Shown: positions 15,177 to 45,880 of the stretch, one piece after another
How the letters are laid out: each line of letters starts with the position of its first letter
Position numbering within the stretch: the stretch's first letter is position 1
From: Protofrankia coriariae
Lineage (GTDB): Bacteria > Actinomycetota > Actinomycetes > Frankiales > Frankiaceae
Assembly (NCBI RefSeq): GCF_001017755.1
Contig: NZ_JWIO01000004.1
Coordinates: 1,085-58,654 of the forward strand
Direction of reading: 5' to 3'
Length of the DNA: 57,570 nt
Notes under the pieces: model-generated
Told to the model about the DNA's origin: nothing
The model's input: the letters and a program-made list of their open reading frames with translations, nothing else
Databases searched by the model: none
Translations under genes and position numbers: made by a program

Positions 15177-15205
15177 TTTCTACTATGAATTCGATTAGAC
15201 GTCAA
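15177..15205 (-). promoter_or_regulatory. Promoter of the NTF2-P450-ligase operon
   Basis: TTGACG (15205-15200), 17-bp spacer with TCTAATCGAATTC, then TAGAAA (15182-15177) on the minus strand, about 90 bp before the start codon. The rest of the gap up to 15476 (about 270 bp) is the leader of the plus-strand acyl-CoA dehydrogenase; I found no gene and no clear plus-strand promoter in it. Confidence 0.55.
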
Positions 15206-20776: not shown

Positions 20777-21564
20777 GGCACGAAATCCACTCGTGAGACC
20801 AGCCAGGATCCGTCGCCGTGACGTTCCATCTGTAGCGCCATTCGGTAGGTTCTGACCTCGCCGTTCGACACCGCCGTGTTCCGCACGGTGGACTGCACGG
20901 CCAGAATGATGTGTGCGATGTTCGCATTGATGTCCTGCACGCCGGCCTCGGTGACCTGGCCGGTCGTGACGACCTGGTTCTGCTTGACAATATCAACGTA
21001 GGAATCGAGGTTCTGGGTGAACAGATTGCGGAAGTCGCCGGTCGCGCCTGAGATGAGCCTGTTGACGTCCGCGTCCGCGGTGTTGAAGTTGATCGACGTC
21101 AGATTCAGCGCCACCTGACGGGCGGCGGCCACAGCATCGTTGCGGCGGGCATCGGCGGCGTGGCCGTTCTGCCAGCGCAGACTGAACACAACCGTGGTGG
21201 CCACAAGCACGACAACAAGCACCGACAATGCCACCAACGCTATCCGGAACGCCCGCCCCCGCCTGAGCGGACGCGATCCTTCGGCCGCGGATGCCGGCGT
21301 CACCGAGGCCGGATCGTCGCTGACCGGACCGTCCGGATTCGGGAGCTCGCCGCCGCCCTCATTGTCCACGAATGCCTCGTCCGGCTGTTCTTCGGCGAGT
21401 GTCCGGACCTCCTCTCCGGTCTTCGCGTCCCTGGTCGTGGACCTGGGATTGCTTTCCCTCGTATCTTCGGCGGGTTCCTCGGTATCGTGTTTCGGCAGGG
21501 CCTCCGGCACGTCGTGGGTCAACAACGTCACCGCTCGGCCGGAGCGATCAGTAGTCCTTGCCAT
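20773..21564 (-). CDS. Mce-associated membrane protein with acidic cytoplasmic N-terminus (263 aa)
   Basis: About 100 N-terminal residues are charged, Pro/Glu/Asp-rich and probably disordered (for example TEEPAEDTRESN and GGGELPNPDGPV), then a transmembrane helix (IALVALSVLVVVLVATTVVF) and an extracytoplasmic Mas domain ending with DGSWLVSRVDFVP. ATG 21564 has GAGGGAG five bases upstream and overlaps the end of mceF by 37 bp; the longer frame to 21762 is overlap with mceF. The domain is homologous to the next gene product, pointing to an old duplication. Confidence 0.85.
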   Translation of the reverse strand: MARTTDRSGRAVTLLTHDVPEALPKHDTEEPAEDTRESNPRSTTRDAKTGEEVRTLAEEQPDEAFVDNEGGGELPNPDGPVSDDPASVTPASAAEGSRPLRRGRAFRIALVALSVLVVVLVATTVVFSLRWQNGHAADARRNDAVAAARQVALNLTSINFNTADADVNRLISGATGDFRNLFTQNLDSYVDIVKQNQVVTTGQVTEAGVQDINANIAHIILAVQSTVRNTAVSNGEVRTYRMALQMERHGDGSWLVSRVDFVP

Positions 21565-25416: not shown

Positions 25417-25418
25417 GA

Positions 25419-27595: not shown

Positions 27596-28824
27596 CGCGT
27601 GCCTCCCTGCAGCTGCGCCGTCTCTTGGTCCGTCAATGGCGCGCCTGCCAGCGGACCGAACAGCTGCACAACCAGCGGCGGATCCCCTACACGCAGCCGG
27701 TTGTCACCGGGGTACGGATTCGCCTCGCCGCCCTTGTCGAAGTCCTTCGTGGCCTCCGTCGGCACCACGCGCCCGTCGTAATGCGGCAGCCCATAACACT
27801 TCGGACCGATGTCGGCGGACATGTTCGGGAGGTTCTGCGGGTTCTTGTACATGACATCTCCCGGCTCGAACTGGACGAGACCGGTGATGCCGGGGACCTT
27901 ATCCTGCGTGGCGAGCATCTGTTTGTCCGCCTTGTCGATGCCTTGCAACAGGCAGGCGAACTCCGGCGAGTACCGCTTCAACAAAGCCGTCGTGGGTAAC
28001 GCGTTCTGCACGACACTCACCAGGGCATCAGCGTTCTGCCCGAAGAAGACACCGCCCTGGTTTCCGGTCTTGCTCACCTGGAACAGGAAGGAGTCGAGCT
28101 GAGCCTGCTGCTCGACCAGCGTCCGGCTCGTCACCGTTACGCTCTCGAGGATGTGTGACAGGTCCGGAGCGATGTCAGCATAGAGGTTGGCGACATCAGC
28201 CGTCCTGGAAAAGTCACTTTGCAGCTGCGGCAAGTTCTCGTTGAACTTGTTCAGATAGGCGGCGAGGTCGGCGCCGGTCTGCCCGAGCTCGTCACCGCGC
28301 CCCTGCAGCGCGCCGGCCAGGTTTCCCAACACCGCGCTGACCTTCGCCGGCGAGGCGGTGTCCAGGATGCGCTGGAGATGATCGAACAGTGTGTTGACCT
28401 CGACGGCCACCCGGTCCCCGCCGACCTGGTCACCAGCCTGGAGAGTGCGTGTGGTGGGATGCTCGGGATAGGTCAGCTCGACCGACTTCGCGCCGAACGC
28501 CGTGAGCTGGTTGAGCTGGACTCCAACGTTAGCCGGGATGTCCTTCATCTTGTCGGGATCCATCTTGAGCGTGATCAGCACACTTCGGCCGTCCTCGGTG
28601 CGTGTCATCGACCCGACATGACCCACGTCGACACCGCGCAGCTGCACCCGATTACCTCGATACATCTGCAGTCCGGTGCGGTCGGCGCGCAGCGTGACAT
28701 CCACAGTGCTGATGAATGCTTGCTGGTATGCGGCGATGCACAGCGCACCAAAGCCGCTCACGACCGCGATGAGTATCAACGCATAAAGCCGTAGCCGCAC
28801 CCGGCCGAACATCGATGTCTGCAC
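27592..28824 (-). CDS. mceA: MceA (410 aa)
   Basis: First MCE protein of the operon: membrane anchor (LYALILIAVVSGFGALCIAAY), MCE domain about 38-120 with VQLRGVDVGHVGSM, long helical segment about 140-260, and a C-terminal domain with Cys in FACLLQG and PKCYGLP. GTG 28824 (VQTSMFGR) with GGGG seven bases upstream is favoured, ATG 28812 is the alternative; both lie just after the yrbEB stop. The C-terminal VPTEATKDFDKGG and QLFGPLAG segments resemble cholesterol-type Mce4A and other MceA proteins, but I cannot assign the substrate from that. Confidence 0.92.
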   Translation of the reverse strand: MQTSMFGRVRLRLYALILIAVVSGFGALCIAAYQQAFISTVDVTLRADRTGLQMYRGNRVQLRGVDVGHVGSMTRTEDGRSVLITLKMDPDKMKDIPANVGVQLNQLTAFGAKSVELTYPEHPTTRTLQAGDQVGGDRVAVEVNTLFDHLQRILDTASPAKVSAVLGNLAGALQGRGDELGQTGADLAAYLNKFNENLPQLQSDFSRTADVANLYADIAPDLSHILESVTVTSRTLVEQQAQLDSFLFQVSKTGNQGGVFFGQNADALVSVVQNALPTTALLKRYSPEFACLLQGIDKADKQMLATQDKVPGITGLVQFEPGDVMYKNPQNLPNMSADIGPKCYGLPHYDGRVVPTEATKDFDKGGEANPYPGDNRLRVGDPPLVVQLFGPLAGAPLTDQETAQLQGGTR

Positions 28825-28828
28825 AGCG

Positions 28829-29671
28829 CTACCCCGAGATCCGAAACGCGTCGGAGTTCGCGTACAACGCCATCGCGATGCACAGCTCAATCGTCATGAC
28901 CGCGATGAGCGAGGTCCGCACCGCGCGCCCGACCGCCTGGCCGACACCAGCCGGGCCGCCGGAGGCAGTGTAGCCATAGTAGGTGTGGATCAGAATGATG
29001 ACTATCGCTATACCCACGGCCTGCGCGAACGCGAACATGACATCCTGCCACTGCATAAACGTGTTCATATAGTGGTTGAAGGTACCCTCGGAAAGCCCGA
29101 AGAAGTTGACCTGGGTCACCTTCCAACCGATCCATCCACCGACCATGGCCATCGCGAAAATCGGAATGATAGTGATCATTCCGGCAACCAGTCGGGTCGT
29201 GACCAGATAGGGCAGCGAACGCACAGCCATCACTTCGAGAGCGTCGATCTCCTCGGCGACTCGCATTGCACCGAGCTGCGCCGTGAAACCACTGCCAACC
29301 GTCGCGGCAAGCGCGGCACCGGCAACGATCGGAGTCAGCAGCCGCGGGGTGATGATGGCAGAGGCGAATCCACCGAGCGCCTCGAGCTGGAGGTTCTTCA
29401 ACGCATCGAAGGTCTGCACCCCGCCGGTAACACCGGCGAATAGTGTAATGAAAAGGGTTATGATCGACGAACCACCGATCACCGCGAGGGCGCCAGTGCT
29501 CATCCCCACCTCGGCGATCAGTCTGACCTGCTCGGTCTTGTAATCCTTGACCGCCTTTGGTGTCCAGGCCAGTGCCTGGCCGTAAAATGAGGCTTGGCGG
29601 CCCAGGTCGTCCAGCAGCCGCAGTGGCACACCAAAGACGTGGACCAGACCACGCCGAAATCCTCCAGCCAT
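28829..29671 (-). CDS. yrbEB: YrbEB/MlaE-type permease of the Mce system (280 aa)
   Basis: Inner-membrane permease with five to six hydrophobic segments. Carries the diagnostic MlaE/YrbE motif VAEEIDALEVMAVRSLPYLV after GSGFTAQLGAMR, which contacts the ATPase. An amphipathic N-terminus (residues 1-50) precedes the first membrane helix. Starts at the stop of yrbEA (one-base overlap). Works as a heterodimer with YrbEA and MceG. Confidence 0.94.
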   Translation of the reverse strand: MAGGFRRGLVHVFGVPLRLLDDLGRQASFYGQALAWTPKAVKDYKTEQVRLIAEVGMSTGALAVIGGSSIITLFITLFAGVTGGVQTFDALKNLQLEALGGFASAIITPRLLTPIVAGAALAATVGSGFTAQLGAMRVAEEIDALEVMAVRSLPYLVTTRLVAGMITIIPIFAMAMVGGWIGWKVTQVNFFGLSEGTFNHYMNTFMQWQDVMFAFAQAVGIAIVIILIHTYYGYTASGGPAGVGQAVGRAVRTSLIAVMTIELCIAMALYANSDAFRISG

Positions 29672-30450
29672 CAGTGGTTCCCTCCAACGATCCCCAATGA
29701 GTACGGCACCTGGGTCAACAGGATGTTGAGCGGGAACAGCGCCAGGAAAGTGTAGACCACGGTCTCGTTCACCGCGTTGCCCACACCGCGTGGGCCGCCG
29801 GCACAGGTCATGCCGCGATAGCAGCCGACGAGGGCACCGACCACACCGAAGGCGACAGCCCGGAGCTCACCGTGCACCAGGTCTGCGAACCCGACCAGAA
29901 GCTTCATCGAGTCCACGTACTGCCCTGGACTGGCTTCCTGGAGGAAGACCGCGAAAAAGAACCCACCAGTCAGGCCGATCAGGATCATCACGCCGTTGAG
30001 CAGAAACGCGCACAGGGCGGTCGCGAGCATCCGGGGCACGACCAGCCGCTGTATGGGATCGATGCCCAGGACCATCATCGCGTCAAGTTCTTCACGGATC
30101 CGGCGGGCGCCTATGTCCGCGCAGATGGCCGTCGAACTGGCTCCGGCGATGATGAACGTCGTCGCAACCGGGCCGATCTGGGTGATCGTGGCGAGGCCCG
30201 AGCCGGAACCGCTCAGGTCGATCGCGCCAAGCTCCGACAGGATCAGGTTGAACTGGAAGGTGACCAGCGCGACGAACGGGATACCCAGCAGAATGGCCGG
30301 ACCGAGTGAGACACTGGCGACGAACCAGGTCTGCTGGATGAACTCGCGCCATTGGAACGGCCGCCGGAAAACGGCGACGAACGTGTCGAGCGTGAACGCG
30401 AAGAAGTTGCCGATCGGTGTGGCGATTCTGGTAAGCGAGATCATGGCCAT
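29671..30450 (-). CDS. yrbEA: YrbEA/MlaE-type permease of the Mce system (259 aa)
   Basis: First gene of the mce operon. Polytopic MlaE-type permease with the motif RREELDAMMVLGIDPIQRLVVPR after ASSTAICADIGA. Start uncertain among GTG 30459, ATG 30450 and ATG 30444; I take 30450, about ten bases from AGGTGG. Preceded by an unusually long untranslated region of about 390 bp if the promoter at 30.85 kb is the one used. Confidence 0.92.
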   Translation of the reverse strand: MAMISLTRIATPIGNFFAFTLDTFVAVFRRPFQWREFIQQTWFVASVSLGPAILLGIPFVALVTFQFNLILSELGAIDLSGSGSGLATITQIGPVATTFIIAGASSTAICADIGARRIREELDAMMVLGIDPIQRLVVPRMLATALCAFLLNGVMILIGLTGGFFFAVFLQEASPGQYVDSMKLLVGFADLVHGELRAVAFGVVGALVGCYRGMTCAGGPRGVGNAVNETVVYTFLALFPLNILLTQVPYSLGIVGGNH

Positions 30451-30845
30451 AAAGGGCACACCACCTGGGGCGCAACGCCGGCACAGAAACGATCACCAAC
30501 CGGAACGCGCCTGCCGGAAGCCGAAGCGGCCGGCAGCGCGCATCGACGGTCCGTGGATCGGCTCAAGCAGGTCGGCACAGTTGCTCTCAGCACTGAGAAT
30601 TTCCCTTCAGCTACAGCCCCGGTGGTCGCGAAGAGCGAGATCAGCGGACCGGTGGACCCTGACATCAGGCGTTGTTCGTCTTGCTGGGGATCGACCAGTC
30701 GGGATGCGGGTCGTGGATCCGCGACTAGGGCGTCCGACAGTATGAGCACTCGGGACCAGGGATGACATCCGCCGATCGCCTGTACGCCTCACAGGGCTAG
30801 CCGATGATCAACAAGAATCTAATGAAATTTTGATGGTTTCGATGC

Positions 30846-31389: not shown

Positions 31390-32136
31390 TTATGTGGAGT
31401 ACCCACCGTCGACGTTGAGCGTCTGTCCGGTCACGTACGACGAGCGGGGCGAGGCAAGGAACGCCACCACCTCGGCGACCTCGTCCGCCGCACCGAACCG
31501 GCGGAGCGCGATCGCTCGCTGGGCGGCCTTCAGTGCGCGCTCGTCGTAGTCGCCCGTGCTCAGCAGGTCCTCCCAGATCCCGGCCTCGATCGTGCCGACC
31601 CCGACGCAGTTCGCGCGCACACCGTTCTTGCCCTCCTCGGCCGCGATGGCGCGGGCGATCTGCTCGACGGCGCCCTTCGGCGCCGCCGAGAGCAGGTCCC
31701 GGGCAGCCCACCGACGGAGGACCGTCGTGACGAGGCAGACCACGGATCCTCTCGTTGCGCGCAGCGGCACGATCGCGGGCCGCAGCAGGTTGAAGCAGGC
31801 CGCGGCGTCGCGCAACAGCTGCTCAGCGAACAGCGCCTGGTCGATGCTCCCGACATAACGCATGGGAATCTGCGGGCCTGCGGCGTACACGACGGTGTCC
31901 AGCCGAGCGAACGAGCCCACGAGCGCCCCGACGTCCGCTGCCTCGGTGAGGTCCGCAGGGTGCACCGTGGCGTTGCGGCCCAGCGCCCGCACAGCCTTGG
32001 CCGCCCTCTCAGCCGCGTCCGCATTGCTGCGATAGGTCAGCGCGACGTCGAAGCCCTCGCGCGCGAGAGCTTTGCAGGCAGCGGCGCCGATACCGCCGCT
32101 GCCTCCCGCGACGAGCGCCTGTGGCTGATCGCTCAT
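31390..32136 (-). CDS. SDR-like protein with degenerate catalytic motif (248 aa)
   Basis: Rossmann-fold short-chain dehydrogenase-like protein: AGGSGGIGAA cofactor loop at the N-terminus, ADLTEAADV, VYAAG in place of NAG, and a C-terminal ASPRSSYVTGQTLNVDGGYS typical of FabG-like SDRs. The catalytic region reads VTTVLRRWAARDLLSAAPKG: the Ser is replaced by Thr and there is no Tyr four residues before the Lys, so the classical YxxxK motif is missing. Starts at ATG 32136 overlapping the MaoC stop (ATGA). Last gene of the eight-gene operon. It may be a binding protein or use another mechanism. Confidence 0.82.
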   Translation of the reverse strand: MSDQPQALVAGGSGGIGAAACKALAREGFDVALTYRSNADAAERAAKAVRALGRNATVHPADLTEAADVGALVGSFARLDTVVYAAGPQIPMRYVGSIDQALFAEQLLRDAAACFNLLRPAIVPLRATRGSVVCLVTTVLRRWAARDLLSAAPKGAVEQIARAIAAEEGKNGVRANCVGVGTIEAGIWEDLLSTGDYDERALKAAQRAIALRRFGAADEVAEVVAFLASPRSSYVTGQTLNVDGGYST

Positions 32137-32564
32137 CGGTCTTCCACAGCCCATGCCTCACGCAGCCGCGCGTACCCGCTCACGACCTCCACACCGTCCT
32201 GGTTGGTGGTCGAGAACGCGAGCTCAGCCTCCGGACCGTGGGGGCCCTTCGTCACTGACGTCACCGTGGCTGAGACCGTCAGGGTGTCTCCCGGCCAGAC
32301 CTGGTTCTTGAAGCGGACCCCGAAGGCGCTGAGATCGGCTTCGTCAACCCAGCCGGTCACCACCTTGGCGGTCAGCCCCATGGTGAGCTGGCCGTGCGCT
32401 ATGACCTTGTCGTATCCGGCGACCTGGGTGGCGTAGACCTCGTCTGTGTGCAGCGGGTTGAAGTCACCGGATGCGCCGGCATACATGACGAGCTGGGTGC
32501 GCGTCAGATCGTGCACGACCACCTGGGAGTGGCTGTCGCCCTCCGTGAGTTGTTCGAGTCTCAC
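32133..32564 (-). CDS. MaoC-like hot-dog dehydratase subunit (143 aa)
   Basis: Single hot-dog domain of the R-hydratase/MaoC type with the catalytic signature DFNPLHTDEVYA (Asp and His) at about residues 35-46, followed by AHGQLTMGL. GTG 32564 is about eight bases downstream of GGAAGG and five bases after the stop of the preceding hot-dog gene. With that partner it probably forms a two-subunit enoyl-CoA hydratase, as in mycobacterial HadAB or ChsH1/ChsH2. The open frame reaching 32981 is an overlap with that neighbour. Confidence 0.88.
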   Translation of the reverse strand: MRLEQLTEGDSHSQVVVHDLTRTQLVMYAGASGDFNPLHTDEVYATQVAGYDKVIAHGQLTMGLTAKVVTGWVDEADLSAFGVRFKNQVWPGDTLTVSATVTSVTKGPHGPEAELAFSTTNQDGVEVVSGYARLREAWAVEDR

Positions 32565-32568
32565 CTTG

Positions 32569-33045
32569 TCACCCTTCCACCGGTCGCTCGGTGACCACCC
32601 GCACGCGGATTGCTGTGACGACGAGCTCACCGCGCTGGTTGGTGAACCGGGTGATCTCCTCTTCGAAGCGAAGCGTCCCGGCGCGTGCGCTCTGCTTCTC
32701 CCAGCGTTTGCCGGGTTCCCGGTCCACCGTGAGCACATCCCCGGGCCGGATCGGGCGATGGTACTCGTAGTGCTGCTCCGCATGAAGGCTGGTGCCGCTG
32801 CCGCTGGCCGGCGGCGGGAAGCCCGGGCCGCGACCGGACCCGTGCCAGGGCGTGCCAGGGCGCGGACGGTACGGCCAGTCGGGGTCGAAGTGCGCCGCGC
32901 TCGCCACGAAGGTGGGTGGGGCCAGCACGCCGCCGTGCGCCTGTGCGGCAGGGGACTCCTCGTCGTACCAACGGGGGTCAAGGTCCCCCAGAGCGCGGGC
33001 GAACATGAGCACCGCGCCTGCTTCGACCGGGAACGAGAAGCTCAC
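32569..33045 (-). CDS. FAS1-type MaoC N-terminal domain protein (158 aa)
   Basis: Hot-dog domain of the MaoC-dehydratase N-terminal type: ALGDLDPRWYDEESPAA near the N-terminus, then APPTFVASAAHFD and the central helix region, and LHAEQHYEYHRPIRPGD, which is diagnostic. It lacks the D...H catalytic pair and would supply the substrate-binding half to the following MaoC protein. A 4-bp overlap couples it to the preceding acyl-CoA dehydrogenase. The segment RPRPGTPWHGSGRGPGFPPP is a Gly/Pro-rich insertion. Confidence 0.82.
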   Translation of the reverse strand: MSFSFPVEAGAVLMFARALGDLDPRWYDEESPAAQAHGGVLAPPTFVASAAHFDPDWPYRPRPGTPWHGSGRGPGFPPPASGSGTSLHAEQHYEYHRPIRPGDVLTVDREPGKRWEKQSARAGTLRFEEEITRFTNQRGELVVTAIRVRVVTERPVEG

Positions 33046-34316
33046 CGGGCACCTGCCGGCCTGGGCTCGCGAGGCAGCCTCAGGACACCCTCACCGAGGA
33101 TGTTGCGCTGTACCTCGCTGGTCCCGGCGTAGACGGTGCCAGAGTGGGCCACGAGGAAGGCGTCCTGCCAGGGGTCGACCGGGTGGCCGGGTCCTTCTGG
33201 ACGGAGTAGCGCGCCGGTTCCCGCGATATCCAGCGCCAAGGCCCCGAGTTTGAGGTGGTACTCGCTCCAGAACAGCTTCCATGTGGACAGCTGCGGACCC
33301 GGTTCCCGTCCAGCGGCAACCTCGGAGACGGTGCGCTCCCACGATGCGCGCAGCAGCCGAACCTGGGTATGTGCCCAGGCCAACTGCTGGCGCACTACCG
33401 GGTCGCGATCCCGGCCCCTGGCGCGCGCGAGCTCGACGAGCGCGGCCAGCTCTCGTTCACGAGACTGCACCAGCATGGTCGTTGCGCGCCCTGCGGCAGC
33501 TCGCTCGAAAGCCAGCGTCGACTGCACGACCCGCCAGCCCTCGCCCAGGCCCCCGATGACGTTGTCCAGCCGTGCGCGCGTCCCGTCGAAGAAGACCTCG
33601 GCAAACTCCTCCGCACCGGTCATCTGACGGATGGGGCGGGCGTCGATGCCATTCTCTCCCGGTGTGAAGGGGACGATGACGTAGGAGAGGCCCCTGTGCT
33701 TGGGCGCGTCGGTGTCGGTCCGGCAGAGAACAAAAATCATATTTGCCGTGGCGAAGCGGCTGGTCCAGACCTTCTGGCCGGTGATGACGACCTCATCCCC
33801 CTCGATCACACCGCGGGTCCGTGCCGAGGCCAGGTCAGACCCTGCACCGGGCTCGGAGAAACCCTGACAGTAACGGTGCTCACCCGACAGGATCGAAGGC
33901 AGCAGACGCCGTTTCTGGTCGTCGGTGCCGTGCAGGATGATCGACGGTCCGACCATCGACTCGCCTTGCACTCGGTCGACGCGCGGCAGGCCAGCGCGGA
34001 AGAACTCCTCGTCGAGCACCGTCATCTCCGGCGCCTCCCAGCCCCGGCCACCGTACTCCTCCGGCCAGGCTGGGCAGACCAGACGCGCCTGGAGGCAGCG
34101 TTCTTCCCACTCGCGGAAGAGCGGGTGCTGCTGAGCCTGAGCGTGCTGCTCCTCGCTGACAGCCCGCATCACCGAGCCCGGCAGGTCGACGCGGGCCCGC
34201 CAGTCCAGGATGTCGGAGAGCCCCTGGGGCGCGTTGGCCGTAATCCAACCGCGCAGCAGCTCACGCAGCTGCGCAGGCTGCGTACCCGGCGGTATCTGGA
34301 GATCTGCTGTGCTCAT
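33042..34316 (-). CDS. Acyl-CoA dehydrogenase, catalytic Glu at the LCAD/IVD position (424 aa)
   Basis: FadE-type dehydrogenase: PEEYGGRGWEAPE, GFSEPGAGSDLAS, GQKVWTSRF and C-terminal SGTVYAGTSEVQRNILGE. The medium-chain catalytic Glu is replaced by Ala (VYAGT), but AFER at residues 269-272 (Glu271) offers the alternative base. ATG 34316 overlaps the stop of the HMG-CoA-lyase-like gene (ATGA); the frame open to 34781 belongs to that neighbour's antisense of coding and is not used. A longer N-terminus with LLRGWITANAPQ places it near FadE proteins of steroid and terpenoid clusters. Confidence 0.92.
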   Translation of the reverse strand: MSTADLQIPPGTQPAQLRELLRGWITANAPQGLSDILDWRARVDLPGSVMRAVSEEQHAQAQQHPLFREWEERCLQARLVCPAWPEEYGGRGWEAPEMTVLDEEFFRAGLPRVDRVQGESMVGPSIILHGTDDQKRRLLPSILSGEHRYCQGFSEPGAGSDLASARTRGVIEGDEVVITGQKVWTSRFATANMIFVLCRTDTDAPKHRGLSYVIVPFTPGENGIDARPIRQMTGAEEFAEVFFDGTRARLDNVIGGLGEGWRVVQSTLAFERAAAGRATTMLVQSRERELAALVELARARGRDRDPVVRQQLAWAHTQVRLLRASWERTVSEVAAGREPGPQLSTWKLFWSEYHLKLGALALDIAGTGALLRPEGPGHPVDPWQDAFLVAHSGTVYAGTSEVQRNILGEGVLRLPREPRPAGAR

Positions 34317-35260
34317 GCTGCCCCGACACTGGCTGCGAGGGCCTGTACAGTGCGCGACGGGCTCGGCCGGCCCAGTTCCTCCGCCATCCAGAGGCTGGTG
34401 CGCACGAGCGCGTGCAGGTCGACGCCGGTCTCGATGCCGAGCCCGTGCAGCTGCCAGAGCAGGTCCTCGGTGGCGAGGTTGCCCGTCGCGCTCTCGGCGT
34501 AGGGACAGCCACCCAGACCGCCCGCGGAGCTGTCGACCGTCGTGACGCCCTCCTGGAGCGCCGCCAGGACGTTGGCAAGCGCCTGTCCGTAGGTGTCGTG
34601 GAAATGCACACCGAGCTGGTCCCGTTCGATCCCCGCGGCGATGAGGGCGCGCACGAGGGCGCGCACGTGGCCGGGGGTCCCCACCCCGATCGTGTCGCCA
34701 AGGCAGAGTTCCGTACAGCCCAGCGCCACAAGGCGCGTCGCCACGTCGACGACCTGCGTCACAGGCACCTTCCCTTCCCACGGGTCGCCACAGACCATGG
34801 ACACATATGCGCGCACCCCGACTCCAGCTGCGCGTGCCTGCTCCACAACCGGCGTGAACATCTCAATCGACTCAGCGACGCTGCGGTTGAGATTGCGCCG
34901 TGAGAACGTCTCGGTGACCGAAGCAAAGATCGCGATATCTCGCACACCTCGGTCGAGGGCCCGCTGCAGGCCCTTGGCGTTCGGCACGAGGACCACATAG
35001 CGCACCCCGTCCACCGGCTGTAGGCGGTCGATGAGGTCCTCAGCATCTGCCAGCTGTGGCACCCACTTCGGGTGCACGAAGCTCGTCGCTTCCACGGTCC
35101 GCAGGCCGGCAGCCACGAGCCGCTCGACGAACTCGGCCTTCACCACCGTGGAGATGACCTGTTTCTCGTTCTGAAGACCGTCACGCGCGCCCACCTCATA
35201 GATACGGACACGCTGCGGAAGGTTGTCGCGTGCGACAACCTGCGGCGCGATCATGACCAC
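34313..35260 (-). CDS. HMG-CoA lyase-like aldolase (315 aa)
   Basis: DRE-TIM metallolyase family member. Signature EVGARDGLQNE at 22-32 with Arg26 and Asp27, metal ligands HFHDTYG (about 219-223) and GLGGCPYAESATGN with Cys252 of the active-site loop. It would cleave a 3-hydroxy-3-methylacyl-CoA into acetyl-CoA or propionyl-CoA and a ketone product, for example HMG-CoA to acetoacetate and acetyl-CoA. In this operon it sits between two acyl-CoA dehydrogenases, which suggests cleavage of a tertiary 3-hydroxyacyl-CoA from a methyl-branched compound. ScoAB further along could use the resulting keto acid. Confidence 0.92.
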   Translation of the reverse strand: MVMIAPQVVARDNLPQRVRIYEVGARDGLQNEKQVISTVVKAEFVERLVAAGLRTVEATSFVHPKWVPQLADAEDLIDRLQPVDGVRYVVLVPNAKGLQRALDRGVRDIAIFASVTETFSRRNLNRSVAESIEMFTPVVEQARAAGVGVRAYVSMVCGDPWEGKVPVTQVVDVATRLVALGCTELCLGDTIGVGTPGHVRALVRALIAAGIERDQLGVHFHDTYGQALANVLAALQEGVTTVDSSAGGLGGCPYAESATGNLATEDLLWQLHGLGIETGVDLHALVRTSLWMAEELGRPSPSRTVQALAASVGAA

Positions 35261-35270
35261 AGCGTGCTCC

Positions 35271-36419
35271 TTACAGCCCGAGAGAGCGGCCGATGATTTC
35301 CTTCATGATCTCGTTGGTACCACCGTAGATCTTCTGGACACGTGCGTCGACAAACGCTCGCGCAATGGGGTATTCGGTCATATAGCCGTAGCCACCGTGC
35401 AGCTGGAGGCAGTGGTCGACGACACGGTTCTGCATCTCGGAGCACCACCACTTCGCCATGGCAGCCTCCTCGGCCGTGAGCTCACCAGCGATGTGTGCCT
35501 CGAGACACCGATCGACGTAGGCCTGCGCCACACTCACCTCGGTCGCCGCTTCGGCGAGGGTGAAGCGGCTGTGCTGGAAGGAGCCGATGGGCTGCCCGAA
35601 AGCCGAGCGCTGGCGCGCGTACTCGAGTGTCCATCTGAGCGCCGCCTGTGCCGCGGCCACGCTGATCACGGCAATGGCCAGGCGTTCCTGAGGGAGATTC
35701 CTGCTGAGGTAGCCGAAGCCCTTTCCCTCTTGGCCAAGCAGGTTCGCGACAGGGACGCGCGCCTCGGCGAAGAACAGCTCTGCGGTGTCCTGTGCGTGCA
35801 TGCCTATCTTGTCCAGGTTCTTCCCGCGCGCGAAGCCCGGGGTGTCGCGCTCCACCACCAGCAGGCTCAGGCCGCGCGCGCCAGCGGTGACATCGGTCTT
35901 CACGACGACAATGACGAGGTCGGCGTTGATGCCGTTGGTGACGAACGTCTTCGAGCCGTTGACGACGTAGTCGTCACCGTCTCGCACGGCCGACGTGCGC
36001 ACCGCGCCCAGGTCCGAGCCGGTTCCTGGCTCCGTCATGGCGATAGCAGTGATCAACTCGCCCGTGACCAGCCTCGGAAACCAGCGCTCGGCCTGCTCGT
36101 CGTTGGCCAGCTGAAGTAGGTAAGGCACAGCTGTGTCGTTGTGCAGGGAGAGCCCCAGCCCTGACGCGTTGACGCCCGCGGCCTGCACCTCCTCGTGCAT
36201 GACGACGTTGTAGCGGAAGTCCGTCACCCCTCCCCCGCCGAAACGCTCAGGGACATCAAGACCGAGGAAGCCGTTCGCCCCTGCGGCCAGGAAGAGTTCG
36301 CGTGGCACGATGCCGGCGTGCTCCCACTCCAGGTGGTGAGGCACAACCTCCTTTTCGAGGAAGCGCCGAAAGCTGTCGCGGAACAGATTGTGCTCCGTCT
36401 GGAAGACATTCCGCTTCAT
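35271..36419 (-). CDS. Acyl-CoA dehydrogenase, LCAD/IVD-type Glu (382 aa)
   Basis: FadE-type dehydrogenase with IAMTEPGTGSDLGAV, GSKTFVTNG and QLHGGYGYMTEYPIAR. The Glu of IYEGT is replaced by Gly (IYGGTNEI), while NLPQERLAIA provides Glu245 at the long-chain/isovaleryl position. The start is the ATG 36419 that begins MKRNVFQTEHNLFRDSFRR, 13 bp after the CoA-transferase stop. HMG-CoA-lyase gene follows after ten bases. Probably acts on a branched or ring-derived acyl-CoA. Confidence 0.93.
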   Translation of the reverse strand: MKRNVFQTEHNLFRDSFRRFLEKEVVPHHLEWEHAGIVPRELFLAAGANGFLGLDVPERFGGGGVTDFRYNVVMHEEVQAAGVNASGLGLSLHNDTAVPYLLQLANDEQAERWFPRLVTGELITAIAMTEPGTGSDLGAVRTSAVRDGDDYVVNGSKTFVTNGINADLVIVVVKTDVTAGARGLSLLVVERDTPGFARGKNLDKIGMHAQDTAELFFAEARVPVANLLGQEGKGFGYLSRNLPQERLAIAVISVAAAQAALRWTLEYARQRSAFGQPIGSFQHSRFTLAEAATEVSVAQAYVDRCLEAHIAGELTAEEAAMAKWWCSEMQNRVVDHCLQLHGGYGYMTEYPIARAFVDARVQKIYGGTNEIMKEIIGRSLGL

Positions 36420-36432
36420 GTCGGGATACTCC

Positions 36433-37671
36433 TCAAACCACGCGTCGTTCGCGCAGGCGTGCGATCCGCTCGGCCGTGAGACCCAACTCGGCCAGGACCT
36501 CGTCGGTCTGCTCACCCAACGCTGGGGCATGACGGGCCACATCGAACGGCTGCCCCGAGACCGGAGCCGGCCATCCCGTGCCCGTGTAGGGGCCCGCGAC
36601 CGGATGCGTCGTCTCGTGCACGATCTCGCGGGCACGCAGGTGCGGGTCGTCGAGCGTGTCCTGCTTGGAGTTCGCCGGGCACAGGGGGATGTCGTGTGCG
36701 CGCGCGATGTCCATCCACTCGGCGAGCGTGCGCTCCTTGAACACGGGGACAAGCTCGTCCAGCAGATCAGCCTTGCCGCCGTCGGCAAAGTCGACGGCGA
36801 ACGACGTGTTCTTGATGTCGAGCAGATCTTCCCGGCCGACGGCTCTGCAGAAATTGTCCCAGAACTTGTGCTCGATGGCGGCGAGGAGCACGATCCGGTC
36901 ATCTTTGGTCGCGTACCAGGTGTACTTGGGTCGCTTGTGCGGGTCCATGCCTACCGGCGGAGGCGGGTTGCGTCGATCCGTGATGCGCGTCGAGTTCCAC
37001 GCCATCACAGCGTCCAGAGCCTGGTTGGCCAGCACCGCGTCCGCGCCCGCCGCGTCGATGTGGGCACCTTCGCCTGTCTGGTCTCGGCGCCGCAACGCCG
37101 CGATCGTCGTGAGGGCGGCGTACAGTGCGGTGGACAGCGGCCCGTCGATCGATCCGGAGAAGTACAGCCCCTCGGGGTTGAGGACTTGGTGCACCACGCC
37201 CCGCTCGTCGAGCTTGTACTGCTCCTGGCCGGCCACTGCTCCCATCATGTAGCCGTGCACAGGGATCTGGCTGTATGCTCCGCGGGCCCCGAAGCCGCTT
37301 GCCTGGCAGTACACGATGTCCGGCTTGGCCGCGCGCTGCGCCTCGTAGCCGATTCCGAGAGCCTCACACGCATCGCCGGCGAAGCCATCCACAAAGACGT
37401 CCGCTGTCTTCAGCAGGCTGAAGAACAGGTCGCGCCCCTCGTCCTGCCGCAGATCGATCGTGACGCTGCGCTTATTGCGGTTACAGAGCAGATGGAACAC
37501 GCTGTTCTGCGGCGTGATCCGATCACCAAGCTCGCGCAGGTAGTCACCGTAACCCGGGCGCTCTACCTTGATCACATCGGCCCCGAGATCCCCGAGCAGG
37601 CGACTGGTCTGGTCACCGGTCGGCAGCATCGCGCACTCGATGACGCGCACGCCCTGCAGCAGCTCGATCAT
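36433..37671 (-). CDS. CaiB/BaiF family III CoA transferase (412 aa)
   Basis: Family III CoA transferase that moves CoA between acids without ATP. Features: LGDLGADVIKVE near the N-terminus, NRNKRSVTIDLR, GYEAQRAAKPDIVY, and FSGSIDGPLSTALYAALTTI in the central domain; the family's catalytic Asp is probably the one in the GSIDG neighbourhood or the ERGVVH region, which I cannot settle by eye. ATG 37671 overlaps the stop of the CrtC-like gene (ATGA). Likely activates an intermediate of the pathway, for example the side chain acid. GMDPHKRPKYTWYATKDD is a good family segment. Confidence 0.9.
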   Translation of the reverse strand: MIELLQGVRVIECAMLPTGDQTSRLLGDLGADVIKVERPGYGDYLRELGDRITPQNSVFHLLCNRNKRSVTIDLRQDEGRDLFFSLLKTADVFVDGFAGDACEALGIGYEAQRAAKPDIVYCQASGFGARGAYSQIPVHGYMMGAVAGQEQYKLDERGVVHQVLNPEGLYFSGSIDGPLSTALYAALTTIAALRRRDQTGEGAHIDAAGADAVLANQALDAVMAWNSTRITDRRNPPPPVGMDPHKRPKYTWYATKDDRIVLLAAIEHKFWDNFCRAVGREDLLDIKNTSFAVDFADGGKADLLDELVPVFKERTLAEWMDIARAHDIPLCPANSKQDTLDDPHLRAREIVHETTHPVAGPYTGTGWPAPVSGQPFDVARHAPALGEQTDEVLAELGLTAERIARLRERRVV

Positions 37672-38648
37672 GACTGGCCCAACCCCCGCAGGAAGCGACG
37701 CGCCTGGATTCCGGGGAACCACTCGATCGCCTCGCCGTACTGCTTGCTCCCGTCGTCGAGTGTCCACTCGCAGAGCGACCAGTACTGCAGATAGCGGGCC
37801 CAGGGCACCCACTTGAGGACGTTCTTGCACTCACCCTCCGCATGGACGGTGCGCCCTATGTCGTCGGTGCCCTCGATGGCCAACTTCCACGGCACTCCGT
37901 CGGGGCGACGTTCGAGGACCTGCCGGGTGCCGGAGACGACATGGCTGATCTTGTCGTCCTTCTGGATCCATCCGGTGATCGCTGGCTCGATCGTGCCCTC
38001 GATCGGATCTGTCGCCAGCGGCTCGGTGCCTATGTTGTACATCTGGAAGGCGAAGCCCTTCCCGTCGTTAAACCACGGAAAGTCACCACGCGGATTGTCC
38101 TTGTAAAGGCGGGGACCCCAGCTATGGTCGCGGTTGGACCCGCAGTCGACGTCGATCTCCTCGCCGTTGATCCATACCTTCCCGCTGACCCGGCCGCCCT
38201 GCTCGTAGTGGTGCGGCCCCCACTCCTGTGAGCCGTCCGGGAAGCCCGAGTTGGCCACACCCATGGTGGCGTCGAAGCGTAGGTCGAGCTGGCAGCCGTC
38301 GCGGTCGTACCGCATCAGAAAGGTCTTCTGGGGTTCGACGCACTTCAGCGTGAGCCCGTTCGGCGTACTGTAGTCGAACATCTCCACCTCGTCCTTGCGG
38401 ACGTCGAGCGGGGCAAGCTCCAGCCAGTCGTGGTACAGGCAGTCGTACATCTGCTCGCCCGACGGGTCCCAGAGAGCCACGCCCGTCATGGAGAAGTTCA
38501 TGTTCGGCCGATGGTTCATGTAGACGAAGCCCGAGAGGTCCCGCTCTGCGACGTAGAACGGGAACCAAGCACTCTCGTTCCAGAAGGGGCTGTCCGTCAT
38601 CGAGTCCTTGTGGAAGTAGTCGTCCTCGGGACGCACGAAGTCGACCAT
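37668..38648 (-). CDS. CrtC/lipocalin-like (DUF7064/7065-type) protein (326 aa)
   Basis: Beta-rich protein of the type found in terpenoid and steroid clusters and often annotated as hydroxyneurosporene synthase-like. Visible blocks include ESAWFPFYVAERDLSGFVYM, DWLELAPLD, and GSNRDHSWGPR with a conserved His/Trp pair, which is the recognisable signature of the CrtC-like fold (RDHSWG). Start ATG 38648 with AGGAGG four bases upstream. First gene of the eight-gene operon. It might hydrate a double bond like CrtC, or bind the lipid; the function is unproven. Confidence 0.75.
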   Translation of the reverse strand: MVDFVRPEDDYFHKDSMTDSPFWNESAWFPFYVAERDLSGFVYMNHRPNMNFSMTGVALWDPSGEQMYDCLYHDWLELAPLDVRKDEVEMFDYSTPNGLTLKCVEPQKTFLMRYDRDGCQLDLRFDATMGVANSGFPDGSQEWGPHHYEQGGRVSGKVWINGEEIDVDCGSNRDHSWGPRLYKDNPRGDFPWFNDGKGFAFQMYNIGTEPLATDPIEGTIEPAITGWIQKDDKISHVVSGTRQVLERRPDGVPWKLAIEGTDDIGRTVHAEGECKNVLKWVPWARYLQYWSLCEWTLDDGSKQYGEAIEWFPGIQARRFLRGLGQS

Positions 38649-38847
38649 GGATCCTCCTGGCTGTCGTCGACGCCTCGGCCCGGTGCCGTTGCTGTCTAAA
38701 TGAACGCAGATTTTGTATAGGAGTGCAAGCACCAACCGCCTGGCAGACCTACGACAGACGGTGTCACCGCGAGCCAGCCGCCGAGGAGGCGGCCACTGCC
38801 TCTCACATCACGTTTAGAATCGGAGGGTCAACCAGAGAGGAACGGCG
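38649..38847. promoter_or_regulatory. Divergent control region between the eight-gene operon and the tandem TetR gene
   Basis: Holds GTCTAAATGAAC (38696-38707) and GATTTTGTATAGG close to the operon start, and GTTTAGAATC (38813-38822) with a TAGAAT -10-like box at 38815-38820 just before the TetR ribosome binding site GAGAGG. These AT-rich words match the TTCTAA/TTAGAA core of other promoters of the cluster and suggest autoregulation. No good -35 is visible for either direction. Confidence 0.4.
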
Positions 38848-40155
38848 ATGACAACGGTGCGCACCCACCCGGGCAAGAAGGCCACGGCGACACGACAGCG
38901 CATCCTCGACGCCGCAGCCAAGATCTTCCGTCAGAACGGCTACACCGGCACCCGCCTCACGGACATCGCTGCGGCGGCACAGATGCAGGCTGGCAGCCTC
39001 TACTACCACTTCGCCTCGCGGGAAGACCTGGTCCAGGAAGTCCTGCGCGTCGGCCAGCAGCGCACGAACGACTTCGTCATAGGCAAGGTCTCCGCCGCGC
39101 CTCCCACCACGAGCAGCCTCGACCGGCTCCGCATCGCCGTACATGCCCATCTCGAGGCCGTCCTTGAGATCGGTGACTACACCGCGGCCACCCTGCGCAT
39201 CTTGGGACAGGTCCCTGAAGAGATCCGCGCTCAGGCCCTCACGCTGCAGCGGGAGTACGGCCAGTGGTGGCGGGAACTGTTCGAGAACGCGCAGCGTGAG
39301 GGTGAGCTGCGTCAGGACCTCGACATCTCCGCGTGCCGCATGCTCGTCCTGGGAGCCATGAACGCATCCCCCGACTGGTTCCACCCCGACCAGCCGAAGG
39401 GACTCACGCTCAGTGGTCTCGAGGAGCAGTTCGCTGCGCTGTTCCTCGACGGGCTCGGGACCTCCAAGGGAAAGCGGCGCCGGTCACACAAGATCATATT
39501 TACCCTCACATCCGATACGCACGAGGAGCCCGCAGCAGAGACACGTGGCGCCGCGACGACCGCTCGGATCCTCGACGCGGCCGCGAAGATCTTTCGCGAG
39601 AACGGCTATGCCGGAGCCCGGCTTGTGGACGTCGCGACCGAGGCCGACATGCAGACCGGCAGCCTCTACTATCACTTCGCCTCGCGCGAGGACCTGGTGG
39701 TGCACCTGCTGCACAATGCCTGGGAACGCACCGACAGCGCGGTGAGGCGCAGCATCAGCGATCTACTCACACGCACCGCGCCTATCAACAAACTGGCGAT
39801 GGCCATGACCGCGCACCTGCTGTCCGTCCTGGCCTGGGGCGACTACACCTCGGCCATGCTGCGAATCCTCGGACAGGTGCCGGACGACGTCCGAGCCGCC
39901 ATCCTTCCATTGCAGCGGACCTACCTCGACCTGTGGCGGGGCTTGCTCAACGACGCTGCCGACGCTGGGGACATCCGCTCCGACCTCGACCTGTCAGTGG
40001 TCCTGATGATGCTGGCGGGTGCCCTGAACTGGACGGTCGAGTGGTACCACGCCGATCACCATCTGGCTCCGGAGCAGCTGGCGGAGCAGTTCTGCGTCCT
40101 TACCCTCGAGGGCATGTCGACACGACGCCGGAGTACGCGTCGACGGAGCACGTGA
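38848..40155 (+). CDS. Tandem TetR-family regulator, two complete TetR units in one chain (435 aa)
   Basis: Two full TetR repressors fused head to tail. Unit 1 (about 16-205) and unit 2 (about 237-425) each carry an HTH with ILDAAAKIF and GSLYYHFASREDLV, plus a ligand-binding domain with DYT(A/S)A.LRILGQVP. The linker (206-236) is basic at KGKRRRSHK, then acidic. A normal TetR has about 200 residues and works as a dimer; here one chain could fold as a pseudo-dimer or make a four-HTH complex. DNA around 38992-39031 and 39658-39697 is almost identical between units, so the duplication is fairly young or kept homogenised. It lies between the two main catabolic operons and is the likely local repressor, induced by a CoA ester in similar FadR/KstR2-like proteins. 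Confidence 0.93.
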   Translation: MTTVRTHPGKKATATRQRILDAAAKIFRQNGYTGTRLTDIAAAAQMQAGSLYYHFASREDLVQEVLRVGQQRTNDFVIGKVSAAPPTTSSLDRLRIAVHAHLEAVLEIGDYTAATLRILGQVPEEIRAQALTLQREYGQWWRELFENAQREGELRQDLDISACRMLVLGAMNASPDWFHPDQPKGLTLSGLEEQFAALFLDGLGTSKGKRRRSHKIIFTLTSDTHEEPAAETRGAATTARILDAAAKIFRENGYAGARLVDVATEADMQTGSLYYHFASREDLVVHLLHNAWERTDSAVRRSISDLLTRTAPINKLAMAMTAHLLSVLAWGDYTSAMLRILGQVPDDVRAAILPLQRTYLDLWRGLLNDAADAGDIRSDLDLSVVLMMLAGALNWTVEWYHADHHLAPEQLAEQFCVLTLEGMSTRRRSTRRRST

Positions 40156-40162: not shown

Positions 40163-40192
40163 TGGACTCAAACCTAAATTAGAAAGTAGGCT
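40163..40192 (+). promoter_or_regulatory. Promoter with AAACCTAAATTAGAA operator candidate
   Basis: TGGACT (40163-40168), 18-bp spacer, TAGGCT (40187-40192). The spacer contains CTAAATTAG (40174-40182), a near-palindrome identical on the coding strand to the one at the Baeyer-Villiger promoter. The start codon of the HMG-CoA-synthase-like gene is about 30 bp downstream. Confidence 0.5.
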
Positions 40193-40221: not shown

Positions 40222-41646
40222 ATGACCGGCCTGCTGTCCTACGGCTCCTACATTCCATACCACCGGCTTCGTCGGAGCGACATGCAGGCGGCTCTCGGCG
40301 CTTCGGGGGGGAGAGGCTCACGCGCCGTGGCCTCGTACGACGAGGATGTCGTCTCCATGGGGGTGGAGGCTGGCTCGGCTGCCCTACAGGGACAGCGTGG
40401 TCTGCCTGAGAGGCTCTATTTCGCCACCTCCTTTCCCCCCTACTTGGACAAGACCAATGCGGCTGTGCTGCACGCCGCGCTCGGACTTGATCGGGCGGCG
40501 CTGGCGGTCGACATGGCTGGCTCACCGCGGTCGGCCATCGGCGCACTGCTGGCCGCGAGCGAGGCGCGAGTCCCGGCTCTCGCCGTAGTCGCCGACATAC
40601 GCACCGGGCTACCCGGGAGCAGCGACGAGCGAGAGGGTGGCGACGCGGCCGCAGCGTTCTTGTTCGGACGCGGCACATCGGAGACACCCGAGCTCGCGAC
40701 CGTACTGGCGTTCGCCTCGACCACGGAGGAGTTCCTGGAGCGGTGGCGGACACCCGGCGAAAAGGCTTCCCATACCTGGGAAGAGCGCTTCGCCGAACAT
40801 GTCTACCGACCGCTGGCTGAGGATGCGTTCACCACCTCGCTGAAAGCAGCCGATCTCGCACCTGGCCAGATCGACCACCTTGTCGTGAGCGGTCTGGCCA
40901 CCCGCGCGGTGCGGCAGTTCGCGCAGGCCAGTGGCGTGCGTCCCGAAGCGGTGGTCGACAACCTGGCAGACCGCATCGGCAACCCCGGTGCGGCTCAGCC
41001 CGGGATACTGCTCGCCGCAGCTCTGGACCGCGCTGGCGCTGGCGAAAACGTCGCGCTGGTCCACCTCGCCGACGGTGCGAGCGCTATGCTGATGCGAACC
41101 ACGGAGCACCTGTTGTCCCGGCGTTCCTCGACAGGCGTTTCGGGGCAGGCGGATGGCCCACACGGTGAGCTCAGCTACATTACTTTCCTCACCTGGCGGG
41201 GAATGCTCGACCGCGAGCCACCCCGGCGACCGGAGCCGGACCCGCCCGCGGCACCGCCAACTCGCCGGTCCGCCGGTTACAAGCTCGCCTTTCAGGCGGC
41301 TCGGTGCGACGCGTGCGGAGCGGTCAATGTGCCACCGGGAAAGGTGTGCTTTGCATGTTCCGCGGTCGACCAGATGTCGCGGCTATCGCTGCGTGACACG
41401 CCTGCGACGGTGGCGACGTTCACTGTTGACCGCCTTGCGTTCACACCGAGTCCACCAATGGTGGCCGTCGTCGTCGACTTCGACGGGGGCGGTCGGTTTC
41501 GATGCGAACTCGCCGACGCGGCCCCGGCAGACGCACATATCGGTCTGCGTGTCGGCCTCACATTCCGACGCCTGCTGACGGCCGACGGCGTGCACAACTA
41601 CTTCTGGAAGGCACGACCTCTTCGCACGGATGAGACGAGGCTCTGA
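40222..41646 (+). CDS. HMG-CoA-synthase-like protein fused to a DUF35 zinc-ribbon/OB domain (474 aa)
   Basis: N-terminal thiolase-fold domain (about 1-330) of the HMG-CoA synthase/KAS III type: SYGSYIPYHRL start, GDAAAAFLFG, NLADRIGNPGAAQ. At the site where HMG-CoA synthases have the nucleophile Cys this protein reads DMAGSPRSA (97-105), so no Cys is present. After a Pro/Arg linker (331-350) comes a DUF35 zinc ribbon with Cys362, Cys365, Cys376 and Cys379 and an OB fold (385-470). Archaeal HMG-CoA synthase and SCP2 thiolases are known to associate with separate DUF35 proteins; here it is fused and is translationally coupled to the thiolase gene. Probably a scaffold or an altered-mechanism subunit. 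Confidence 0.85.
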   Translation: MTGLLSYGSYIPYHRLRRSDMQAALGASGGRGSRAVASYDEDVVSMGVEAGSAALQGQRGLPERLYFATSFPPYLDKTNAAVLHAALGLDRAALAVDMAGSPRSAIGALLAASEARVPALAVVADIRTGLPGSSDEREGGDAAAAFLFGRGTSETPELATVLAFASTTEEFLERWRTPGEKASHTWEERFAEHVYRPLAEDAFTTSLKAADLAPGQIDHLVVSGLATRAVRQFAQASGVRPEAVVDNLADRIGNPGAAQPGILLAAALDRAGAGENVALVHLADGASAMLMRTTEHLLSRRSSTGVSGQADGPHGELSYITFLTWRGMLDREPPRRPEPDPPAAPPTRRSAGYKLAFQAARCDACGAVNVPPGKVCFACSAVDQMSRLSLRDTPATVATFTVDRLAFTPSPPMVAVVVDFDGGGRFRCELADAAPADAHIGLRVGLTFRRLLTADGVHNYFWKARPLRTDETRL

Positions 41647-42848
41647 TGGCATCACGAGGTATCTGTGATCGGGTCGCAATCGTTGGCATGGGCTGTACGG
41701 TGTTCGGCGAGCACTGGGACCGCGGCACGGATGACCTTCTCGTCGAGGCGGTGGGGGCAGCCACGCAGAGTACATCTATCGCGATCGACGACATCGACGC
41801 TTTCTGGCTCGGCACCTACATGTCAGGCGTCTCAGGTCTGACGCTGAGCCGTCCGCTCCGGATCCGCGACAAACCCGTCAGTCGCGTCGAGAACATGTGC
41901 GTGACAGGATCCGAAGCGTTGCGTGGCGCCGCGTACGCCGTCGCCAGCGGCGCCTACGACATGGCCATGGCCGTCGGCGTCGAAAAATTGAAGGACTCCG
42001 GCTACTCCGGTCTGACTCGTCAGTCGATTCCGGGCGACGGGACGGGCGGCACGCTTGGCACCACAACGGCACCAGCCAACTTCAGCCTGCTGGCACCGGC
42101 CTACAGCCGGAAATACGGCGTGGACGAAGACCAGTTGAAAGAGGTCTTCACTCGGATCGCCTGGAAAAACCACAAGAACGGTTCCCGGAACCCACGGGCC
42201 CAGTTCCGAAAAGAAGTGGCCAGGACAACCATCGCCCGTTCCCCTCTGGTCGCCGGAAACCTCGGCGTATTCGACTGCTCCGGGGTATCGGATGGGGCAG
42301 CGGCAGCGATCGTAGTACGGGCCGAGGACGCGTACCGCTACACCAAGCGCCCCCTGTTCGTGAAGGCGTTGTCCTTCGTGTCCGGTGCGGCAGACGGTAA
42401 CATCGACCCAAACTACGACTTCACGACCTTCCCGGAGGTCGAGGCATCCGCAAAGGAAGCCTACCGCCAGGCGGGCGTGTCCGATCCTCGGGCTCAGATC
42501 GCGATGGCCGAGGTGCACGACTGCTTCACCGTCACCGAACTCGTCCTCATGGAGGATCTCGGCTTCGCCCCCCGCGGAACCGCATGGAAGGACGTTCTGG
42601 CTGGGGCGTTCGACCTGGACGGCACACTACCGGTCAACCCCGACGGCGGACTGAAGGCATTCGGTCATCCTGTGGGGGCGTCAGGGCTTCGCATGCTCTA
42701 TGAGTGCTGGCTGCAGCTTCGTGGTGAAGCTCCGGAGGAGCGGAGCATTCCCAGCACGGGAAAAACTATGGGCTTGACCCACAATCTCGGCGGAGGCCCC
42801 GGCGAGTGTGTATCGTTCGTATCCATCGTCGGGACGGAACGCCCATGA
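41646..42848 (+). CDS. SCP2-type thiolase / lipid-transfer-like acyltransferase (400 aa)
   Basis: Thiolase of the SCPx/Ltp branch. Nucleophile Cys85 in ENMCVTGSE; HDCFTV at 291-296 and GHPVGASG at 341-348 give the His residues; the C-terminal Cys of classical thiolases is replaced (NLGGGPGE), as expected in SCP2 thiolases and in Ltp2-type aldolases. The ATG overlaps the stop of the HMG-CoA-synthase/DUF35 gene by one base. It may cleave a 3-ketoacyl-CoA or carry out a retro-aldol step with the DUF35 domain, as Ltp2 does with ChsH2. Ends 120 bp before the convergent Baeyer-Villiger gene. Confidence 0.92.
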   Translation: MASRGICDRVAIVGMGCTVFGEHWDRGTDDLLVEAVGAATQSTSIAIDDIDAFWLGTYMSGVSGLTLSRPLRIRDKPVSRVENMCVTGSEALRGAAYAVASGAYDMAMAVGVEKLKDSGYSGLTRQSIPGDGTGGTLGTTTAPANFSLLAPAYSRKYGVDEDQLKEVFTRIAWKNHKNGSRNPRAQFRKEVARTTIARSPLVAGNLGVFDCSGVSDGAAAAIVVRAEDAYRYTKRPLFVKALSFVSGAADGNIDPNYDFTTFPEVEASAKEAYRQAGVSDPRAQIAMAEVHDCFTVTELVLMEDLGFAPRGTAWKDVLAGAFDLDGTLPVNPDGGLKAFGHPVGASGLRMLYECWLQLRGEAPEERSIPSTGKTMGLTHNLGGGPGECVSFVSIVGTERP

Positions 42849-44931: not shown

Positions 44932-44994
44932 CATCTCTCCTTCCATGGCAGCAGGCCACCTGCCGCCAGCGACGGTCCATGCGGGACTTCGTCT

Positions 44995-45023
44995 GTTCTA
45001 ATTTAGTTTAGATACTATCTCAA
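44995..45023 (-). promoter_or_regulatory. Promoter of the Baeyer-Villiger gene with AAACTAAATTAGAA word
   Basis: TTGAGA (45023-45018), 17-bp spacer, TAGAAC (45000-44995) on the minus strand. The spacer end and -10 form AAACTAAATTAGAAC, shared with the promoter at 40.17 kb (AAACCTAAATTAGAAAG). A repressor bound here would block the -10. Confidence 0.6.
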
Positions 45024-45849: not shown

Positions 45850-45880
45850 TTGCAAGGCGCTATTTTCTAACTAGAGTTAG
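45850..45880 (+). promoter_or_regulatory. Promoter and palindromic operator candidate of scoAB
   Basis: TTGCAA (45850-45855), 16-bp spacer, TAGAGT (45872-45877). Over the -10 lies CTAACTAGAGTTAG (45867-45880), a perfect inverted repeat with 6-bp arms and a 2-base centre, 18 bp from the scoA start. It begins with TTCTAA like the other promoter words of the cluster. Confidence 0.5.

Follow-up and report, generated by a model that had tools for sequence, protein, structure and literature searches.

The window analysed here, a stretch of 57,570 nucleotides from the 5.8-Mb genome of a nitrogen-fixing, Frankia-type bacterium, contains a gene in which two TetR repressors are read end to end as one protein, raising the question of whether the two units work together within a single chain and how such a protein came about. 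A second question follows from the literature, in which a double TetR repressor, Mce3R, is already known, namely whether the window protein is another copy of Mce3R or something separate.

Two TetR units in one open reading frame

The first-pass annotation had read the gene as two complete TetR units in one 435-residue chain, and the Pfam searches bear this out. TetR_N and TetR_C_24 each match twice, the two TetR_C_24 matches scoring 68.9 and 70.9 bits against a cut-off of 26.4 and both TetR_N matches exceeding the curated cut-off, so that both halves belong to the TetR family by domain content. The gene, which is intact in relatives, is laid out as follows:

38848..40155, plus strand: double TetR repressor, 435 aa, a single ORF with its ATG at 38848 and a stop ending at 40155 (Pfam TetR_N twice, TetR_C_24 twice)
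38902..39042, plus strand: DNA-binding domain of the N unit, TetR_N, residues 19-65 (Pfam PF00440)
39112..39456, plus strand: ligand/dimerisation domain of the N unit, TetR_C_24, residues 89-203 (Pfam PF17932; helices in the model)
39457..39555, plus strand: variable linker without an in-frame start codon, about residues 204-236 (alignments, codon scan, pLDDT below 50 over most of 207-231)
39568..39702, plus strand: DNA-binding domain of the C unit, TetR_N, residues about 241-285 (Pfam PF00440 on the C half)
39778..40116, plus strand: ligand/dimerisation domain of the C unit, TetR_C_24, residues 311-423 (Pfam PF17932; helices in the model)

When aligned with each other, the N and C halves are identical at 96 of 193 positions (50%) with 2 gaps (E=5e-64). 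The HTH regions share 38 of 54 residues and have QxGSLYYHF in common, the ligand domains share 59 of 139 (42%), and the C half of the window protein retains the GDYT, QVP and DLD motifs. The DNA encoding the two HTHs (38992-39031 and 39658-39697) had also been noted as nearly identical, which holds at 37 of 40 bases. Over 54 codons, HTH identity at codon positions 1, 2 and 3 is 74, 89 and 54%, where chance would give 37% at position 3, so the likeness of the HTH DNA reflects mainly protein constraint; a recent DNA-level copy of the HTH finds no support in these values.

The closest named relatives of the double TetR are found in Frankia. A protein of Candidatus Frankia californiensis is 99% identical but masked over a large part of its N half; an intact fusion with the same layout, 94% identical, occurs in Frankia sp. 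CiP1. The fusion is likewise intact as one open frame in F. gtarii and Frankia QA3 (58% identity) and on the megaplasmids of Rhodococcus DK180, DK17 and R. oxybenzonivorans (54% identity). The proteins from the Rhodococcus plasmids pDK3 and pRB98 (WP_157180130.1 and WP_230990348.1) are the same fusion, at 54% identity and with the same flanking genes as in the window, and are annotated only as "TetR family transcriptional regulator". Linker sequences differ among these relatives and the frame is open throughout, while a codon scan of residues 191-250 in the window copy found no in-frame stop and no ATG, GTG or TTG. Given this variation under an uninterrupted frame, and the lack of a start codon in the window linker, both a sequencing error and separate translation of the C unit are unlikely.

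By sequence searches, the Frankia/Rhodococcus type of double TetR is rare. Among 396 genomes sampled across the phylum, with few candidates scored per genome, no full-length match besides the window was found at E 1e-50, and none was found among 201 genomes from one sampled family of the same class, again with few candidates scored per genome. An earlier prediction, as cited by PMC11667970, puts the number of double TetR proteins in Actinomycetes at 204. Our literature search for natural double or single-chain TetR proteins found Mce3R alone. The first-pass annotation had proposed looking for other TetR-TetR fusions, and had named two findings that would refute its reading, a sequencing error joining two genes or a fusion that turns out to be common and well studied. 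The search returned the intact fusions in Frankia and on Rhodococcus plasmids, which exclude the error, together with Mce3R, of separate descent; the second concern applies in part, in that one member has been studied in depth and the type is rare. Another unusual TetR fusion lies elsewhere in the same genome (L005, contig C73, 1399-3033), where a 544-residue ORF joins TetR_N and TetR_C_24 to Abhydrolase_3, an alpha/beta hydrolase domain.

Fold and descent in relation to Mce3R

The double-TetR architecture is already described in Mce3R (Rv1963c, PDB 9b7y) of M. tuberculosis and its subfamily, and the original claim to novelty shrinks to that extent. Like the window protein, Mce3R is a single chain of some 400 residues built from two TetR units, regulates lipid genes (a role that is predicted for the window protein) and has an mce operon near its gene. 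Its cryo-EM structure is an asymmetric, single-chain Omega with a four-helix bundle built from its two units, M1 and M2; one chain corresponds to a TetR unit, paired chains hold two DNA duplexes, and the operator is nonpalindromic (PMC11667970).

Structure prediction as a monomer, which the first-pass annotation had suggested, returned Mce3R as the best full-length match twice. AlphaFold2 was run without templates, the release of 9b7y dating from November 2024, and gave models of moderate confidence built on 4 sequences, both for the window protein (pLDDT 70.6, pTM 0.72) and for its Frankia QA3 relative (pLDDT 64.5, pTM 0.62). For both models the first Foldseek match was 9b7y, over 425 columns with TM 0.64/0.72 for the window protein and over about 425 columns with TM 0.61/0.67 for QA3. 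The coverage of the query by single TetR chains peaked at about 0.36 in the search with the window model, and because no single-domain match exceeds this, the two units appear to be arranged relative to each other much as in Mce3R. The models thus support a single-chain pseudo-dimer, with the qualification that a single chain as input may favour intramolecular packing. The first-pass annotation had offered this pseudo-dimer alongside a second possibility, two chains whose four HTHs would bridge a pair of sites; the two models back the former, and the latter stands as an alternative that need not exclude it, because Mce3R chains also pair, holding two duplexes.

Among the closest single-domain structural matches, by their PDB titles, were KstR2, AibR and FadR. 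These are single TetR repressors of the TetR_C_24 class with which each window half shares sequence and fold class as well as a context of acyl-CoA catabolism; they are homodimers of about 200 residues, whereas the window protein holds both units in one chain, and the likeness to KstR2 is one of fold and class only. All three are regulators that respond to acyl-CoAs, the ligand of KstR2 being given in PMC11667970.

Despite the shared architecture, Mce3R and the window protein are only about 16% identical. We built a tree from the N and C halves of the window type, the halves of six Mce3R-type proteins found by sequence, and single TetR relatives. In it, both halves of the window protein branch among single TetR proteins of the KstR2/FadR type and are separated from M1 and M2 (support 99/98), and AU tests rejected grouping the N half with M1 (p=0.026) and the C half with M2 (p=0.0016). 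The HTHs of M1 and M2 differ from each other in the Mce3R-type proteins, against the 38/54 identity between those of the window protein. The best reading of these sequence comparisons is that the window fusion arose independently of Mce3R.

The C halves of Frankia and Rhodococcus form one clade (100/99) and the N halves another, weakly supported (55/84). Because each half forms a clade over both genera, the fusion would be older than the Frankia/Rhodococcus split or would have passed between them whole. In a tree without long-branched rows the N and C halves are sisters with 100/100 support; with the long-branched singles included this relation is lost, and holding N and C together is not rejected (p-AU 0.2-0.3). 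For this reason, origin by internal duplication is likely on the sequence comparisons, though not proven.

A conserved catabolic cluster with a conserved motif at predicted operators

The double TetR gene sits in a cluster whose main genes in the window are:

1632-2984, minus strand: P450-like ORF (Pfam p450)
13385-14650, minus strand: P450 gene
15477, plus strand: acyl-CoA dehydrogenase gene
21528..30459, minus strand: mce uptake operon with two YrbE/MlaE permeases and six Mce proteins (Pfam MlaE, MlaD, Mce4_CUP1)
31390..38735, minus strand: divergent catabolic operon with DUF7065, CaiB CoA-transferase, acyl-CoA dehydrogenases, an HMG-CoA-lyase-like protein, MaoC and SDR (Pfam, synteny)
40222..42848, plus strand: gene for an HMG-CoA-synthase-like (HMGS)/OB-fold protein and thiolase gene (Pfam, NCBIfam)
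42970-44946, minus strand: FMO-like monooxygenase gene, right of the double TetR
from 45898: CoA-transferase genes, right of the double TetR

P450, aldehyde dehydrogenase, amidohydrolase and ligase genes occupy the left end of the window. On the left side, ABC ATPase and AMP ligase genes accompany the complete mce operon on the minus strand, the mce set plus the ABC ATPase spanning 19131-30459. Because the complete mce operon and the ABC ATPase belong to the catabolic region, the cluster probably imports a substrate that, judged by gene content, is lipid-like.

A syntenic counterpart of the cluster core (P450, ligase, SDR, MaoC, dehydrogenases, lyase, CaiB, TetR-TetR, HMGS and thiolase), 53-79% identical, is present on Rhodococcus pDK3, and most of the core is also conserved in Frankia QA3 and F. 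gtarii. The gap between the double TetR and HMGS genes measures about 4.7 kb on pDK3 (L019, 16324-21055) versus 1.3 kb on pRB98 (L020, 9324-10598), the extra DNA on pDK3 probably being an insertion. The related loci that we call mycobacterial come from the family to which the genomes of the recovered Mce3R carriers belong. There, the TetR genes close to HMGS/thiolase are ordinary single ones, and two of the loci (L044 and L045) have mce genes too. In one mycobacterial relative, L049, two separate TetR genes follow each other on the same strand next to HMGS/thiolase (9256-9894 and 10007-10687); although this arrangement mirrors the fusion in unfused form, the pair was rejected as a direct ancestor of it, both members grouping with other mycobacterial singles and not with the two halves.

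We compared seven promoter regions of the window, QA3 and Rhodococcus clusters and found a CTAA/TTAG dyad at spacings of 1, 6, 8 and 11, most other spacings being empty. When up to 1 mismatch is allowed, CTAA-N6-TTAG occurs 8 times in these regions against 0.23 expected, its usual form being CTAAnCTAAnTTAGnTTAG. The TAGAAT word that the first-pass annotation had pointed to as shared between promoters is hardly enriched (7 seen, 3.2 expected), and the CTAA-N6-TTAG dyad replaces it as the predicted operator signal.

A PWM trained only on the QA3 and Rhodococcus sites was then scanned on the window, where six peaks reach at least 16 bits (44993, 15180, 2972, 38696, 45791 and 40169), all of them intergenic or at a gene start. 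In 60 Markov simulations of the window the mean maximum was 11.1 bits and 95% of maxima were at or below 15.1 bits, and among 300 column-shuffled symmetric decoys none equalled the mean score of the window's six best peaks. The predicted sites are:

2972..2990: possible operator at the start (5' end) of the P450-like ORF (PWM 20.5)
15180..15198: predicted operator between the P450 and acyl-CoA dehydrogenase genes (PWM 25.4)
38696..38714: operator predicted in the space separating the TetR gene from the left operon, CTAAATGAACGCAGATTTT, weakly palindromic (2/10 pairs; PWM 18.0 bits)
40169..40187: predicted operator before the HMGS/OB-fold and thiolase genes (PWM 16.3; dyad with 1 mismatch)
44993..45011: predicted operator before the monooxygenase gene, with exact CTAATTTAGTTTAG at 44998 (PWM 27.6, the window's best)
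45791: separate PWM peak near the CoA-transferase dyad (16.7)
45867..45880: exact dyad CTAACTAGAGTTAG before the CoA-transferase genes

Among the sites that the first-pass annotation had named for binding assays, those at 38.7, 40.17 and 45.0 kb carry the motif and the one at 30.8 kb does so weakly; matches in the promoter region of the mce operon are weak (12 bits). Exact CTAAN6TTAG occurs 4 times in the whole genome, 2 of these being the window sites at 44998 and 45867. The remaining two are at 3755 and 18455 of L059 (contig C74), one just before an apparent SDR start (MGTLDGRVAI) and the other a perfect palindrome, CTAATTCGAATTAG; they are possible trans targets. The host genome encodes further TetR proteins of this class, which could bind the motif as well.

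With N6 spacing the half-site centres lie 10 bp apart, one helical turn or about 34 A, which fits the HTH-HTH distance of 32-38 A in DNA-bound TetR proteins (PMC11667970). From this motif we infer that the double TetR binds the CTAA-N6-TTAG sites. The predicted sites in the window are mostly dyads (38696 excepted) and would face two nearly equal HTHs, whereas Mce3R has unlike halves, unlike HTHs and a nonpalindromic operator. The single-TetR mycobacterial loci beside HMGS/thiolase mostly have matching sites above every simulation; in the PWM scan, two of them (L048 and L021) had none above the simulations. The apparent use of a similar site by single-TetR relatives is most simply explained if the palindrome was already there, served by a homodimer, and the fusion took that homodimer's place.

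A proposed single-chain repressor and its alternatives

Taken together, we consider it fairly probable that the protein is a one-chain pseudo-dimer which places its HTHs on CTAA-N6-TTAG and represses the catabolic cluster until an acyl-CoA binds. The N and C units would pack via their last helices into one Omega-shaped pseudo-dimer, each of the two nearly identical HTHs taking one CTAA half-site. Because several operators hold two dyads offset by 5 bp (7 of 8 dyad pairs), two chains may sit on opposite faces of one operator. The double TetR would thereby repress the surrounding lipid/isoprenoid-type cluster, probably its own gene and perhaps the mce uptake operon, and an acyl-CoA intermediate of the pathway would bind and release it, a ligand suggested by the presence of KstR2, AibR and FadR among the nearest single-domain structural matches.

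The same components could be assembled otherwise. Each half retains a full TetR fold and its own dimerisation helices, the palindromic sites suit N-N or C-C dimers, and the dyads at 38.7, 40.2, 45.0 and 45.9 kb lie at distances suited to looping, so that two chains might pair unit by unit as two tethered classical TetR dimers whose four HTHs bridge two operators and loop the promoters. We regard this as unlikely, given that both AlphaFold2 models match the intramolecular arrangement of Mce3R, for which pairing of N with N and C with C was excluded by experiment (PMC11667970). The chance is smaller still that one unit has lost the binding of DNA or of ligand and acts as a built-in partner only; the stem branch leading to the C halves is indeed longer (1.37), and the Rhodococcus C half is without the GDYT motif kept elsewhere, but both HTHs are conserved, with QxGSLYYHF in each, and the window C half keeps GDYT, QVP and DLD.

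That the window protein is an Mce3R orthologue, both going back to one ancient fusion, is suggested by the same architecture, similar length, lipid regulon and nearby mce operon, yet we consider it very improbable: the tree and AU tests part its halves from M1 and M2, and those halves are 50% alike with nearly equal HTHs. As for the fusion being an artefact of sequencing or assembly that merges two genes, we found no support for this beyond the existence of separate neighbouring TetR genes in L049, and the open fusion with differing linkers in independently sequenced Frankia and Rhodococcus records leaves it practically no room.

Returning to the proposed single-chain pseudo-dimer, what is new here is its apparently separate origin, its nearly equal HTHs and its predicted dyad operators. 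A bolder and rather doubtful extension is that TetR pseudo-dimers arose independently at least twice in actinobacterial mce-bearing lipid clusters, and that the two pockets, 42% identical, sense different CoA intermediates, making the protein a two-input switch on a palindrome inherited from single-TetR ancestors. The regulon prediction outlines a lipid/isoprenoid-type pathway together with an mce uptake system in Frankia. The window protein would be a second, apparently independent natural single-chain TetR besides Mce3R, with likely dyad operators and with single-TetR relatives in comparable clusters, which allows one to ask what the fusing of a homodimeric repressor brings, whether stability, half-site asymmetry or two-ligand sensing.
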